A stretch of DNA of 64,000 bases from positions 1 through 64,000 of the forward strand of contig JAKPEO010000086.1 in the NCBI GenBank assembly GCA_029551925.1. The letters are read 5' to 3'. Made by a program: the position numbers and the translations under genes. Positions 2,767 to 31,370 of this stretch are shown in pieces (position 1 is the first letter of the stretch; each line of letters opens with the position of its first letter). Below the pieces are notes generated by a model. The model did not search any database. It had not been told where the DNA came from and saw only the letters and a program-made list of their open reading frames with translations. The stretch comes from a bacterium (GTDB taxonomy: Bacteria > JAGOBX01).

Positions 2767-3367
2767 TTTTTGTTACTCCTTATTTTTTTTTAGAATTTAA
2801 TTAATTATGAGAAAAAGTAAATTTTTTATTTTTTTATATTAAAAATAATTTTATAAAAAATCAAGTAATTTTATATGTTTTCGCTTTTATTTAGGGCGGG
2901 ACAACAATTCACCATAAATTGTTTCAAAAAATAAAAAATATATTGGGCGAAAAGAGAAAAAAGCTGTTTAATTAACAAACGCAGATAAAAATCTATAACG
3001 AATGAGAAGAAGCAAAGATTTTTTTCAAACTCTTTATTTAATTTTAATATTGAATTGTGGAATTTTGATTTTGATTGAGTGAGGTTTGAATTTTTTTGGA
3101 TTAAAAAACAAAAAAACAACTTGATTTTTCAGCTTACGCCGCTTCCTATAAGACATATTATGTAAACTAATTAATTCGCTCAAAATATCCAACTAACTAA
3201 AAAACAAAGCAAAATAAAAAAATAATTTGTTTTTTTATCTTGTAAAATAAAAAATAAATATTAAAATATCTTTATTTAGATTACACATAATTTACTTTTA
3301 TGTTTTTCAAATATGTTTTTCAAAAAAAATTAAACAAAAATTATTTTTTTATTTAGGAGTTTTTTTT
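2767..3367. other. Gene-free 600-bp spacer holding a dif-like site
   Basis: No convincing gene is seen between rubrerythrin and the M48 protease, although they diverge and need only short promoters. The stretch is very A+T-rich with long A and T runs. An 82-codon minus-strand frame at 2871-3119 has biased composition, no ribosome site and no recognisable family. The notable element is the dif-like sequence at 3141-3168. The right end carries the M48 gene's AGGAG at 3356-3360. Confidence 0.6.
3141..3168 (+). other. dif: Putative XerC/XerD dif recombination site
   Basis: The 28 bp read as GCTTCCTATAA (left, XerC-type arm), GACATA (central six) and TTATGTAAACT (right, XerD-type arm). From memory, the Bacillus subtilis dif has arms ACTTCCTAGAA and TTATGTAAACT: the right arm is identical and the left arm matches at 9 of 11 positions. 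The 11-6-11 spacing is exactly that of chromosomal dif sites, where XerCD resolves chromosome dimers under FtsK control. It sits in an unusually long gene-free spacer. A mobile element that uses Xer recombination would carry a similar site, but no such element is seen. Confidence 0.8.
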
Positions 3368-24651: not shown

Positions 24652-25322
24652 GCAAAAAATTATTATTATTTGATGTTGACGGCACATTAGTAAAATTAGA
24701 CGGCGCTGGTTTACGCGCGCTTGACAAAACTTTTTTTAAAATTTTCGGCATCAAAGACGCGGTATATAAAGTAAATTTTTACGGCAAGACAGACCCGAAA
24801 ATTTATGAAGATATAATGACTATCGCAAATCTGCCGCTAAAACTATTAGACGAAAAAAAAAAGGAAATTTACGAAAAATACATTTATCATTTAAAATATG
24901 AAATCAGTATATTTCCGCATAATCCAGTCATCACAAATGTAATAGAATATCTTGAAAAAATAACAAATAATGACAATTATATTATCGGATTATTAACAGG
25001 CAATATAGAAGCCGGCGCTTATATAAAAATCGGACGGTGGGATTTGACTAAATATTTTTCGTTTGGCGCATTCGGCAGCGATTCCAAAATTCGTTCAGAA
25101 TTAGTAAATATTGCGGTTGCGCGCGCAAAAAAAAAATTTAATATTCAGCATTTTGACAAAGATAATATTTTTATTATCGGCGATACTCCGCTTGATATTC
25201 AATGCGCGAAAGATAATAATGTCAAAGCGGTTGCAGTAGCGACCGGCAAATATTCAATTGGCGAATTAAAAGAATATCAGCCGGATATTCTTATTAATTC
25301 GCTAATCGAACTTGACATTTAA
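24648..25322 (+). CDS. HAD-family phosphatase (phosphoglycolate phosphatase-like)
   Basis: A 224-residue cytoplasmic HAD hydrolase with motif I LLLFDVDGTLVK (nucleophile Asp near residue 8), motif II GLLTGN, motif III Lys in the SDSKIR region, and motif IV IIGDTPLDIQCAKDN. It resembles Gph/PPase subfamilies; the substrate is unknown. Translationally coupled (ATGA) to the flippase-like gene and downstream of the DPPR-synthase-like gene, so a phosphate-removing step in lipid-pentose synthesis is possible. It converges on acn with a 4-bp overlap of stops. Confidence 0.85.
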   Translation: MSKKLLLFDVDGTLVKLDGAGLRALDKTFFKIFGIKDAVYKVNFYGKTDPKIYEDIMTIANLPLKLLDEKKKEIYEKYIYHLKYEISIFPHNPVITNVIEYLEKITNNDNYIIGLLTGNIEAGAYIKIGRWDLTKYFSFGAFGSDSKIRSELVNIAVARAKKKFNIQHFDKDNIFIIGDTPLDIQCAKDNNVKAVAVATGKYSIGELKEYQPDILINSLIELDI

Positions 25323-27220
25323 TTTTTCTGCGATGCTACAAATTTCAATACTCCGCCGGCTTTAATCATCAGCGCTTCGCGTTTTGTTAAATCGTGTTTA
25401 GCTGAAATAGTAGAATTTTTAGTAATATTTTTTATTGTTACACTATAATTCTCAACTAAATCAGTAACATCTATTTCCAAAATATCGTCTTTATCAATTA
25501 AATCAGTATTGCATATTATAGGGACAATACCGGTATTAATTAAATTCGAGCGGTGAATACGAGCAAATGATTTTGCTAATACTGCCTGAATGCCTAATTC
25601 GTTCGGAGCGAGCGCAGCGTGTTCGCGCGATGAGCCCTGTCCGTAATTTTCGCCGCCAATAATAAATCCGCCGTTATTTTCACGGCAGCGTTTCGGAAAT
25701 TCTGCATCAATATAATAAAAAACAAACTCAGAAATTTTGGGCAGATTACTGCGCAAATGTTGTGTTAATGGACCAGCCGGCAGAATATCATCAGTCGAAA
25801 TACCGTCGCCTACTTTAATTAATGCTGTCCCTTTTAAAATATTAGGCAGCGGCTGATTTTGTTTGAGCGCCGCGATATTAGGTCCGCGCAACACTTCGCG
25901 GCTGTCTTCAAACGGCTGCACTATAAGCGAATCGTCAATTACAAAACTTTCAATTTTTATTTCTGGAATAGTATATTTCCGCGGGTCTGCAATTTTTCCT
26001 TCAAGCGCTGAGGCCGCGGCTATTTCCGGACTGCATAATGCAATGCGGCAATCTTTGCTGCCGCCACGACCGAACCAGTTGCGATTAATAGTCCGCAAAC
26101 TCAAATGATGATAGCCCGGCACAAATCCTACTCCTATACAAGCATTACAGCCCGGGTCTATTATCCGCGCGCCGGCATCAATTAATTTCTTGATGCTGCC
26201 GTCATTCATCAAAGTTTGTAAAACTTGTTTAGAGCCAGGCGATACGATAAAATCAATATTTTTACTTATTTTTTTGCCTGCTACTATTTCTGCCGCTATT
26301 TTTAAATCATACACGCTGCCGTTTGTGCAAGATCCGATAAATACTTGGTTTATGGGAGTGCCTGCAACTTCATCTATTAATTTCACATTATCTGGCGAGC
26401 CGGGCATCGCTATCTGCGGAGTTAATGCAGATAAATCTATATCGATAATTTTATAATATTCGGCATCAGCATCAGGTTCAAGCGGTTGCCAATCTTTTTC
26501 GCGCCCTTGCTTTTTCAAAAAATCTTTTGTTATTTCGTCAGATGGAAATAAACTCGTAGTAGCGCCTGTTTCCGCCCCCATATTAGTAATAGTTGCGCGC
26601 TGCGGAATTGACAGAGTTTTCACGCCTTCGCCTGAATATTCTAAAATACAGCCGACGCCGCCTTTAACAGATAGTTTTTTCAAAACTTCAAGAATTATAT
26701 CTTTTGCTGATACTGCTTTATTCAGTCTGCCAGTAAGATTAATTTTTATTACGCGCGGTACACGCAAATAAAAAGCGCCGCCGCCTAATGCTACTGCTAC
26801 ATCTAATCCGCCTACACCTATGCCCATCATTCCTAAACCGCCGGCTGTTGGAGTATGACTATCAGAGCCGAGCATTGTTTTGCCGGGAGCGCCAAAACGC
26901 TCATAATGAACTTGATGACATACGCCATTTCCAGCTTTTGAAAAATATGCCCCGTATTTTGATGCGATTGTCTGTAAAAATAAATGGTCATCTGATGATT
27001 CGCCTTTAAAACTTAATGATGTATGGTCGCAGTAAGATACAGCTTTTTCACAACGAATTTTGTCAATACCGAGCGCTTCAAATTCGAGCCACGCCATTGT
27101 GCCGGTACTGTCCTGCGTTAAACAATGGTCTATTTTTATTGCTATTTCTTCGCCGAAATTTATAGAATTTCCTTCGACTAAATGTTCTTTAAAAATTTTT
27201 TGCGAGATAGTTAATCCCAT
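25319..27220 (-). CDS. acnA: Aconitate hydratase (short, about 630-residue type)
   Basis: Interconverts citrate and isocitrate in the TCA cycle with a [4Fe-4S] cluster. The 633-residue chain has the LeuC-like part first, with iron-sulfur Cys in IGSCTNG (near 298) and GCNACIG, and the LeuD-like swivel domain at the end with GGENYGQGSSREHAALAP. This short type is found in many anaerobes and deep-branching lineages. AGGAGG lies about 11 nt before the ATG. It stands alone; the long 5' side (27221-27416) is a 196-bp spacer where its promoter must lie. Confidence 0.93.
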   Translation of the reverse strand: MGLTISQKIFKEHLVEGNSINFGEEIAIKIDHCLTQDSTGTMAWLEFEALGIDKIRCEKAVSYCDHTSLSFKGESSDDHLFLQTIASKYGAYFSKAGNGVCHQVHYERFGAPGKTMLGSDSHTPTAGGLGMMGIGVGGLDVAVALGGGAFYLRVPRVIKINLTGRLNKAVSAKDIILEVLKKLSVKGGVGCILEYSGEGVKTLSIPQRATITNMGAETGATTSLFPSDEITKDFLKKQGREKDWQPLEPDADAEYYKIIDIDLSALTPQIAMPGSPDNVKLIDEVAGTPINQVFIGSCTNGSVYDLKIAAEIVAGKKISKNIDFIVSPGSKQVLQTLMNDGSIKKLIDAGARIIDPGCNACIGVGFVPGYHHLSLRTINRNWFGRGGSKDCRIALCSPEIAAASALEGKIADPRKYTIPEIKIESFVIDDSLIVQPFEDSREVLRGPNIAALKQNQPLPNILKGTALIKVGDGISTDDILPAGPLTQHLRSNLPKISEFVFYYIDAEFPKRCRENNGGFIIGGENYGQGSSREHAALAPNELGIQAVLAKSFARIHRSNLINTGIVPIICNTDLIDKDDILEIDVTDLVENYSVTIKNITKNSTISAKHDLTKREALMIKAGGVLKFVASQKN

Positions 27221-28706: not shown

Positions 28707-31370
28707 TCAATATATCTTCGCTTGTTCTGAATCAGCCGACCAGCCCTTTTGCCTTAAATAATCTTCCTTTGCGATAAGTATCTGTCGCGGCTGTGGTCCC
28801 ATACTCGGCCCCACTACTCCTTTTTTTTCTAATAAATTCATAAGTTTTACAGCGCGATTATGACCGACGCGCAATTTCCGCTGTAATAATGCAACTGAAC
28901 CTTGTCTGCTTAAAACTACTATTCTTTCTGCTTCCTCTAATAATTCATCTTCACCTGAATTTTCAGAAGCATCATATTCATCATTTTCAGTTTCATCGTT
29001 TTCTTCGGTATCAATATTGAACATATCTTCTTCTTGAGAATATTCAAATTTTCTCTGACTCTGTATAAAATTAATCACTCGTTCAATTTCTTCATCGCTT
29101 ACATATGCGCCTTGCACGCGCACCGGTTTTGGAAATGCTTGCGGCTTATATAACATATCGCCGTTTCCTAATAATGATTCAGCGCCAATTTGGTCTAATA
29201 TCGTGCGCGAATCAACGCTGGACGAGACTTGAAAAGCTATTCTCGACGGAAAATTTGCTTTAATTAAGCCGGTTACAACATCAACTGATGGACGCTGCGT
29301 AGCTAAAATTAAATGTATTCCAACAGCGCGAGCCATTGCCGCAAGCCGCGATATTGCCGCTTCGCAATCTTTTCGCGCAAGCGCCATTAAATCCGCTAAT
29401 TCATCAACTATAATAACAAGAAACGGCAATTTTTCATCGCTCATAGCATTATATCTCAAAATATCGCGCGCGCCGATTTTTTGTAATTTTTGATAGCGTT
29501 CTGTCATTTCTTTTATCGCCCAATTAAATGCGCGCGCCGCTTTCTTCATATCAGTCACAACCGGCGCTATTAAATGCGGCAATTCGCTATACGGTTTGAA
29601 TTCCACCATTTTTGGATCAATTAAAATTAATTTTAATTGATCAGGCGATAATTTCATTATTAAACTAATTATAATTGTATTCATACAAACTGATTTTCCT
29701 GAACCAGTAGCGCCGGCAACTAATAAATGCGGCATCTTCGCTAAATTCGCTATTACAGGTTTGCCTAAAATATCTTTGCCTATCGCCATTTTCAAAGGCG
29801 CTTCATTTTTTACAAATTCATCTGATTCAATTAATTCGCGCAGCGATACTAACGCCGCTTTTTTATTGGGGATTTCAATACCGACAGCTGATTTACCGGG
29901 AATCGGTGCTACTATACGAATTGATTTTGCCGCTAATTGCAGTTTAATATCGTCATGACGCGTCGCTATTTTATTTACAGGCACTCCCGGCGCTGGCAAG
30001 ACCTCATACATCGTAACAGTAGGGCCAACATTATAATCCGTCACTTTTGCATCGATTTTAAATGCATCAAATGTGTCTTCCAATTTTGAGATTATATCTC
30101 TTATCTCTTCTTCTGGCACAAAATATGTGGTATTAGCCGGACGATTTAATAATTCTATCGGCGGCAGTTCAAAGGGCGGCAATTCCTTTTTGGCTGTCAT
30201 ATTAGATAATGCTTCTTCTACGTCTACTTCATTTGTATGCGCTATTTCTTTTTTTTGTATTATAAATTCTTCCGGCTGCTCTTCTTCATCTTCATAAATC
30301 TCTGCGCTGTAATTATTTTTTTGAATTTCTGCTACGGCTATTTCTTCCGGTTCATCATCATCTGCGGATTCTTTAATATCTTCTGTTTCTGAACTTTGTT
30401 CTTGCTGCTTTTTGCGAGCGATTATATCTTCGCGCTCTTCAAGTTCTTTGGCTATTGCTTGCTCAACTGAAATTTTATACGATTTATCATTATCATCATC
30501 TTCGTCTTTGACTGCTGCAATTTTTTGCTCGTTTTCTTCTTTTTTTTCCTTTATAGATACTCCTATTTTTTCTTGCAACTGCTCTTTTAAGGTCTTGGCT
30601 GGTTTATTAGTTTCTTCTTCTTTTTTAGTTATTTTTACTTTTAAATTTTCGATATTTTTAGTGGTCTCTTGCTGTTTTTTTAATTCATTTTTATCTTTAT
30701 AATTTTTAAAACTTTCTTTTAATGCTATAAATATTTTTTTTATACCGCTCCATATTTTTTCTAAAAATTTCAAACCGATAATTTTCAAAAAATTAATGAA
30801 TTTCAAAAAGCCAATTGCCAAATATTTCCATATAAATAATGCGCCTTCAATAAAAGATAATTTAGTCAACAGTACAACTGAAAATGATAATAACGCAAGA
30901 ACTAACAAATATACGCCAAATCCAATATAATGTTTTATTTTAAAAAACAATATTCCGATGAAACCGCCGGCAACTAATTCTCTGCGAATTTCTTTATTTG
31001 CACTTTCTGGAATTATAATTTCAAATATCGCAGAAAATGCAATAATTATAAAAAATATCGCTATTAATTTTACTATTAAATGTTCAGCTATTCTCTTATC
31101 TTTAAATTCAAAGACGCCCCAGATTATAAAAAAAATCGGTATTAAATAACTGCTTTTCCCAAACACTGTAAATATCGCTTCGGCAATATTTGCGCCAAAT
31201 ACTCCCATCAGATTTTTATATTCATAATCAGGTAAGCCCGCTTGACTTGTATAATCTACAATGTTAAAAGATAAAATACTCAACAATAAAATAATCGCTA
31301 AAAAACAAACTAATACTCCTATAATTTCATTGATTTTTTTTTCTTCTTTTAAATAATCCCACAAACTCAA
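28707..31370 (-). CDS. ftsK: DNA translocase FtsK/SpoIIIE
   Basis: A septal DNA pump that clears the chromosome at division and activates XerCD at dif. 887 residues: four or five N-terminal membrane helices (up to about 185), a long charged Glu/Lys-rich linker (about 210-400), the RecA-like motor with Walker A AGATGSGKS near 556-564 and LVIIVDELADLMA, and a C-terminal winged-helix gamma domain (SVALLQRKLRVGHNRAVKLM, then GVVGPSMGPQPRQIL) that reads orienting DNA motifs. The start is TTG at 31370, with GGAGG 10 nt before; the nearer ATG is out of frame. Confidence 0.96.
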   Translation of the reverse strand: MSLWDYLKEEKKINEIIGVLVCFLAIILLLSILSFNIVDYTSQAGLPDYEYKNLMGVFGANIAEAIFTVFGKSSYLIPIFFIIWGVFEFKDKRIAEHLIVKLIAIFFIIIAFSAIFEIIIPESANKEIRRELVAGGFIGILFFKIKHYIGFGVYLLVLALLSFSVVLLTKLSFIEGALFIWKYLAIGFLKFINFLKIIGLKFLEKIWSGIKKIFIALKESFKNYKDKNELKKQQETTKNIENLKVKITKKEEETNKPAKTLKEQLQEKIGVSIKEKKEENEQKIAAVKDEDDDNDKSYKISVEQAIAKELEEREDIIARKKQQEQSSETEDIKESADDDEPEEIAVAEIQKNNYSAEIYEDEEEQPEEFIIQKKEIAHTNEVDVEEALSNMTAKKELPPFELPPIELLNRPANTTYFVPEEEIRDIISKLEDTFDAFKIDAKVTDYNVGPTVTMYEVLPAPGVPVNKIATRHDDIKLQLAAKSIRIVAPIPGKSAVGIEIPNKKAALVSLRELIESDEFVKNEAPLKMAIGKDILGKPVIANLAKMPHLLVAGATGSGKSVCMNTIIISLIMKLSPDQLKLILIDPKMVEFKPYSELPHLIAPVVTDMKKAARAFNWAIKEMTERYQKLQKIGARDILRYNAMSDEKLPFLVIIVDELADLMALARKDCEAAISRLAAMARAVGIHLILATQRPSVDVVTGLIKANFPSRIAFQVSSSVDSRTILDQIGAESLLGNGDMLYKPQAFPKPVRVQGAYVSDEEIERVINFIQSQRKFEYSQEEDMFNIDTEENDETENDEYDASENSGEDELLEEAERIVVLSRQGSVALLQRKLRVGHNRAVKLMNLLEKKGVVGPSMGPQPRQILIAKEDYLRQKGWSADSEQAKIY

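Follow-up and report, generated by a model that had tools for sequence, protein, structure and literature searches.

The stretch of DNA analyzed here, hereafter called the window, is 64,000 nucleotides long and represents bases 1–64000 of contig C67 (69,992 bases) in a metagenome bin. Close to its left end lies a 28-bp sequence, GCTTCCTATAAGACATATTATGTAAACT, which was read directly from the plus strand and consists of two 11-bp arms that flank a 6-bp center (GCTTCCTATAA-GACATA-TTATGTAAACT). This sequence is located in a spacer that is the longest in the window if an 82-amino acid open reading frame (ORF) with a TTG start and no Pfam match is ignored. A first-pass annotation of this DNA had described a 28-mer with the 11-6-11 plan of dif in the longest gene-free spacer of the window; the sequence is present exactly as described and, with the 82-amino acid ORF set aside, so is its setting. 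The gene for the DNA translocase FtsK, which occurs as a single copy in the assembly, lies 25.5 kb from the site. Table 1 lists the coordinates of these features.

Table 1. Features of the window that bear on the probable dif site.
Feature	Position	Strand	Basis
5' part of 735-codon gene (membrane protein, TPR repeats), continues into contig C95	3..1073	-	Terminal overlap and open frame
Intergenic spacer around the probable dif site, 601 bp	2767..3367	.	ORF gaps
Probable dif core, 28 bp, 11-6-11	3141..3168	+	Direct read; unique at ≤3 mismatches; 35.7 bits
XerC-type arm GCTTCCTATAA	3141..3151	+	9 of 11 positions shared with B. subtilis dif
Central region GACATA (strand exchange by analogy)	3152..3157	+	Position between arms
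XerD-type arm TTATGTAAACT	3158..3168	+	11/11 identical to B. subtilis dif
FtsK DNA translocase: 4TM, alpha, motor, and gamma domains	28707..31370	-	Pfam; genome searches

The site closely resembles dif of Bacillus subtilis, a single-copy, 28-bp element of the same 11-6-11 design, for which CodV and RipX correspond to XerC and XerD; 24 of 28 positions are equal to those of the B. subtilis sequence ACTTCCTAGAATATATATTATGTAAACT as printed in PMC3025954. The four differences spare the XerD arm and are divided equally between the XerC arm and the center, which confirms against the published sequence the earlier reading of an unchanged XerD arm and two differences in the XerC arm. Comparison with the E. 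coli dif sequence reveals that 19 of 28 positions are shared. A survey that predicted dif sites in 16 phyla on the basis of sequence, single copy number, and nearness to the shift-point of GC skew (PMC3025954) apparently did not cover the present lineage; these properties are shared by the site.

The whole assembly (2,962,522 bases in 131 contigs, 86.3% complete) contains only one place that matches the full 28-mer with three or fewer mismatches, which answers the question raised by the first-pass annotation as to whether other copies exist. When the spacer between the arms was left free, one further match with exactly three mismatches was found on contig C121 and appears chance-like. The site scored 35.7 bits with a position weight matrix built on 33 dif-like sites in other genomes, a value that is partly circular because these training sites were selected for likeness to the site (three or fewer arm mismatches); this circularity does not affect the comparison with B. 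subtilis dif. The runner-up in 917 kb of the same genome scored 12.4 bits, and the highest score among 60 million simulated positions was 19.8 bits. The two-arm pattern with a free spacer found matches in 40 of 98 mostly unrelated genomes, and many of these are clear dif sites. One unrelated genome (G021) carries three dif-like sites with differing centers on its contigs C42, C53, and C12, which are possibly attachment sites of elements that use Xer recombinases.

The search for dif was extended to the sister genome G001 and to three further genomes. G001 is the sole other member of the family among the genomes compared, the remainder being related at the level of domain only; it is also incomplete and yielded no convincing dif. 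Matches in G001 and G098 were at chance level only, and no dif was found upstream of the M48 peptidase gene on the short G001 contig that carries it. The same search revealed two perfect dif sites in the Aminicenantes genome G100. These sites (C138:4184-4209 and C176:58-83) are identical and one is at a contig end, as might result from an element or from duplication in the assembly.

The window begins at the start of C67, 3.1 kb left of the probable dif site, and the left replichore is therefore out of view. We noticed that bases 1–19 of the window are the reverse complement of bases 1–19 of contig C95 (104 kb) and that the match runs to the very end of either contig. Reverse-complemented C95 followed by C67 forms a 174-kb join in which a single uninterrupted gene of 735 codons crosses the joint; its product contains membrane segments in the N-terminal region and TPR repeats in the C-terminal region. 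The terminal overlap and the open frame across the joint led us to take C95 and C67 as neighbors. The overlap itself is short, A-rich, and of low complexity, and the join rests on this overlap together with the open frame. No Pfam domain that spans the joint was found in the 735-codon gene product, which also had no match in a plasmid search.

In the 174-kb join, cumulative GC skew climbs from 0 to about 3,950 across C95, remains flat between approximately −12 kb and +5 kb in window coordinates, and then declines, reaching about 2,390 by the right end. The probable dif site lies inside this plateau. A mean-shift fit places the switch in skew at window −4.3 kb with a bootstrap interval of −10.3 to −0.3 kb, which leaves the site itself outside, and a broken-stick fit places it at −8.3 kb. 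The first-pass annotation had anticipated a skew extreme near 3.15 kb; this held to the extent that the plateau of the join, which is not the whole replicon, includes the site, but the estimated switch is 7–11 kb to the left, near the site and not at it. Positions of dif correlate with the shift-point of skew and need not equal it (PMC3025954). In the join, 71 of 92 ORFs to the left and 34 of 53 to the right are oriented toward the site. The excess of minus-strand genes to its right, originally given as 34 of 52, is also evident when ORFs of at least 100 amino acids are counted (34 of 50).

Gene strand by itself can produce skew. GC skew of the plus strand at third codon positions was +0.127 left and −0.032 right of the site in plus genes and +0.033 left and −0.163 right in minus genes; in intergenic DNA, skew was +0.089 on the left versus −0.087 on the right. 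The shift within all three classes indicates that the difference between the two sides is not due to gene strand. Among 22 contigs or joins (1.24 Mb), a strong switch in sign after correction for gene strand was found only in the C95-C67 join, for which z on the weaker side was 7.9 compared with 2.1 for the next, values that assume independent sites and are usable for ranking only. The other sampled contigs (1.07 Mb) showed no skew switch comparable to that of the join; on C36, the sign of raw skew follows blocks of genes, and a single sign is obtained once gene strand is corrected. The earlier proposal that the window may hold the replication terminus is supported by a plateau that contains the site and by a switch that survives correction. 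Because the assembly is a fragmented and incomplete metagenome bin, it may lack a better dif, and the skew extreme applies to the join and not necessarily to the whole replicon.

The genome encodes the recombinases for which the first-pass annotation had suggested a search. A model search of the genome identified XerD on contig C92 (358.8 bits, above the XerD cut-off) and an XerC-like recombinase on C110, for which the best model is XerC with a score of 324.6 bits, slightly below the XerC cut-off of 335.15; the latter protein exceeds the general cut-off for tyrosine recombinases. Inspection by eye showed that both proteins retain the catalytic residues typical of tyrosine recombinases (R, K, HxxR, H, and Y). 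A further Xer-like recombinase at C50:1926-2718 is split into two adjacent pieces in different frames and may be a broken integrase gene. FtsK includes a gamma domain that aligns with those of E. coli and Pseudomonas aeruginosa FtsK. Residues that read the FtsK-orienting motif (KOPS) have been named as N1296, R1300, and E1303 (PMC2533119); the alignment with E. coli FtsK reveals that N1296 is kept, whereas R1300 and E1303 are replaced by K and N, respectively. The gene set is the same as that of the dif/XerCD/FtsK system of E. coli. B. subtilis differs in that it has the pair SpoIIIE and SftA (PMC5357621), whereas the present genome has one FtsK.

From the sequence of the 28-mer, the lack of a second copy in the assembly, the set of genes encoded, and the switch in strand composition around the site, we consider it very probable that the 28-mer serves this bacterium as its chromosomal dif and lies in the region of the replication terminus. 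By analogy with the known systems, XerC would bind the left arm and XerD the right arm. When sister chromosomes have fused as a dimer, FtsK at the septum would pump DNA toward the terminus, pair both copies of dif, and activate XerD; XerC and XerD would then swap strands across the 6-bp center to yield two monomers. Such a site would place the replication terminus in an uncultured, deep-branching lineage with very few relatives among the genomes compared and extend the known dif/XerCD/FtsK system to a little-known group of bacteria, the biology being otherwise ordinary. The analysis also indicates that an adjoining contig, together with skew corrected for gene strand, allows a dif call to be tested even in a fragmented metagenome bin.

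A site of this type could instead be a pdif of the plasmid type or a dif-like attL or attR left by an element that uses host XerCD, an IMEX phage for example; these elements use the same type of arm (PMC4246890 and PMC11705084), and the contig breaks off 3.1 kb to the left of the site. We regard this explanation as improbable, inasmuch as an integrated element needs two flanking copies and the assembly has one, and a skew switch is unexpected at an attachment site of either kind. Moreover, the neighbors that were tested (genes for panC, rubrerythrin, M48 peptidase, recD2, clpX, and fliE) are of ordinary kinds, and no mobile element was recognized beside the site. That the 28-mer is a functionless chance match can be regarded as next to negligible. 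In this AT-rich genome, loose patterns find frequent matches: a pattern of invariant positions with up to two mismatches found 24 matches in the window versus 26 expected from shuffles, which renders weak matches uninformative. The site, however, fits this pattern with 0 mismatches, exceeds the best simulated position by 16 bits, and lies at the sole strong skew switch that was found.

Given a G-rich leading strand, a skew maximum corresponds to the terminus; with a C-rich leading strand, the switch would mark the replication origin. The 16S rRNA gene is on the minus strand of C4, for which corrected skew is −0.075, and fusA is on the plus strand of C37, for which it is +0.146; each occupies the G-rich strand, as does the majority of genes, and the placement of these two genes is consistent with a G-rich leading strand. 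Contig C70, which carries dnaA, has corrected skew near zero and no clear switch; the origin was consequently not located, which leaves room for the origin reading, and polarity rests on the two genes together with general gene orientation. An origin at this position would make the lagging strand the home of most genes, including 16S rRNA and fusA; dif is located close to the skew shift-point of the terminus (PMC3025954). We therefore judge an origin to be very unlikely here and retain the terminus as the explanation of the switch. In addition to the DnaA on C70, a second DnaA-like protein is encoded at C30:9703-11007 and scores 301.8 bits, which is below the DnaA cut-off.

The first-pass annotation had also raised the question of whether FtsK-orienting motifs change polarity at the site. 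In the 174-kb join, AGAAGAAG points toward the site 35 times and away from it once; other words score as high, and the word itself is no more than a candidate for the FtsK-orienting motif of this genome. A systematic scan likewise placed AGAAGAAG and words that overlap it near the top, with other words similar. In approximately 1.03 Mb of contigs oriented by skew, a procedure that favors any G-rich word, the sense strand of leading genes carries AGAAGAAG at 3.6 times the density found on that of lagging genes, and intergenic copies of the word favor the G-rich strand by 15 to 1. Counter-oriented genes of the join alone contain too few copies to separate the motif from coding effects. The E. 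coli motif GGGNAGGG occurs once in the join, and GAGAAGGG, another known FtsK-orienting motif, is absent from it. GAAGAAG, which points toward the site 49 times and away 4 times in the join, is the KOPS of Lactococcus lactis (PMC6466248). L. lactis has a single recombinase, XerS (PMC5052618), whereas the present genome has an XerC/XerD pair. One could tentatively imagine that an A-rich motif, either AGAAGAAG or GAAGAAG, orients FtsK in the manner of L. lactis alongside a normal XerC/XerD pair, which would match the altered KOPS-reading surface of the gamma domain (the replacements of R1300 and E1303); we consider this possible, though somewhat doubtful.

The M48 peptidase encoded beside the site has its nearest relative in named genomes, with 56% identity, in G001, which was deposited under the name Candidatus Dependentiae bacterium Go_SlDig_bin_425; a protein of MAG bacterium Yes70-08 follows (49%). 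The G001 bin of 3.8 Mb seems large for Dependentiae, and the deposited label may be wrong. Elsewhere in the window, a gene of the aconitase family at positions 25319–27220 has a GC content of approximately 40% compared with roughly 30% in the surrounding DNA and was possibly acquired.
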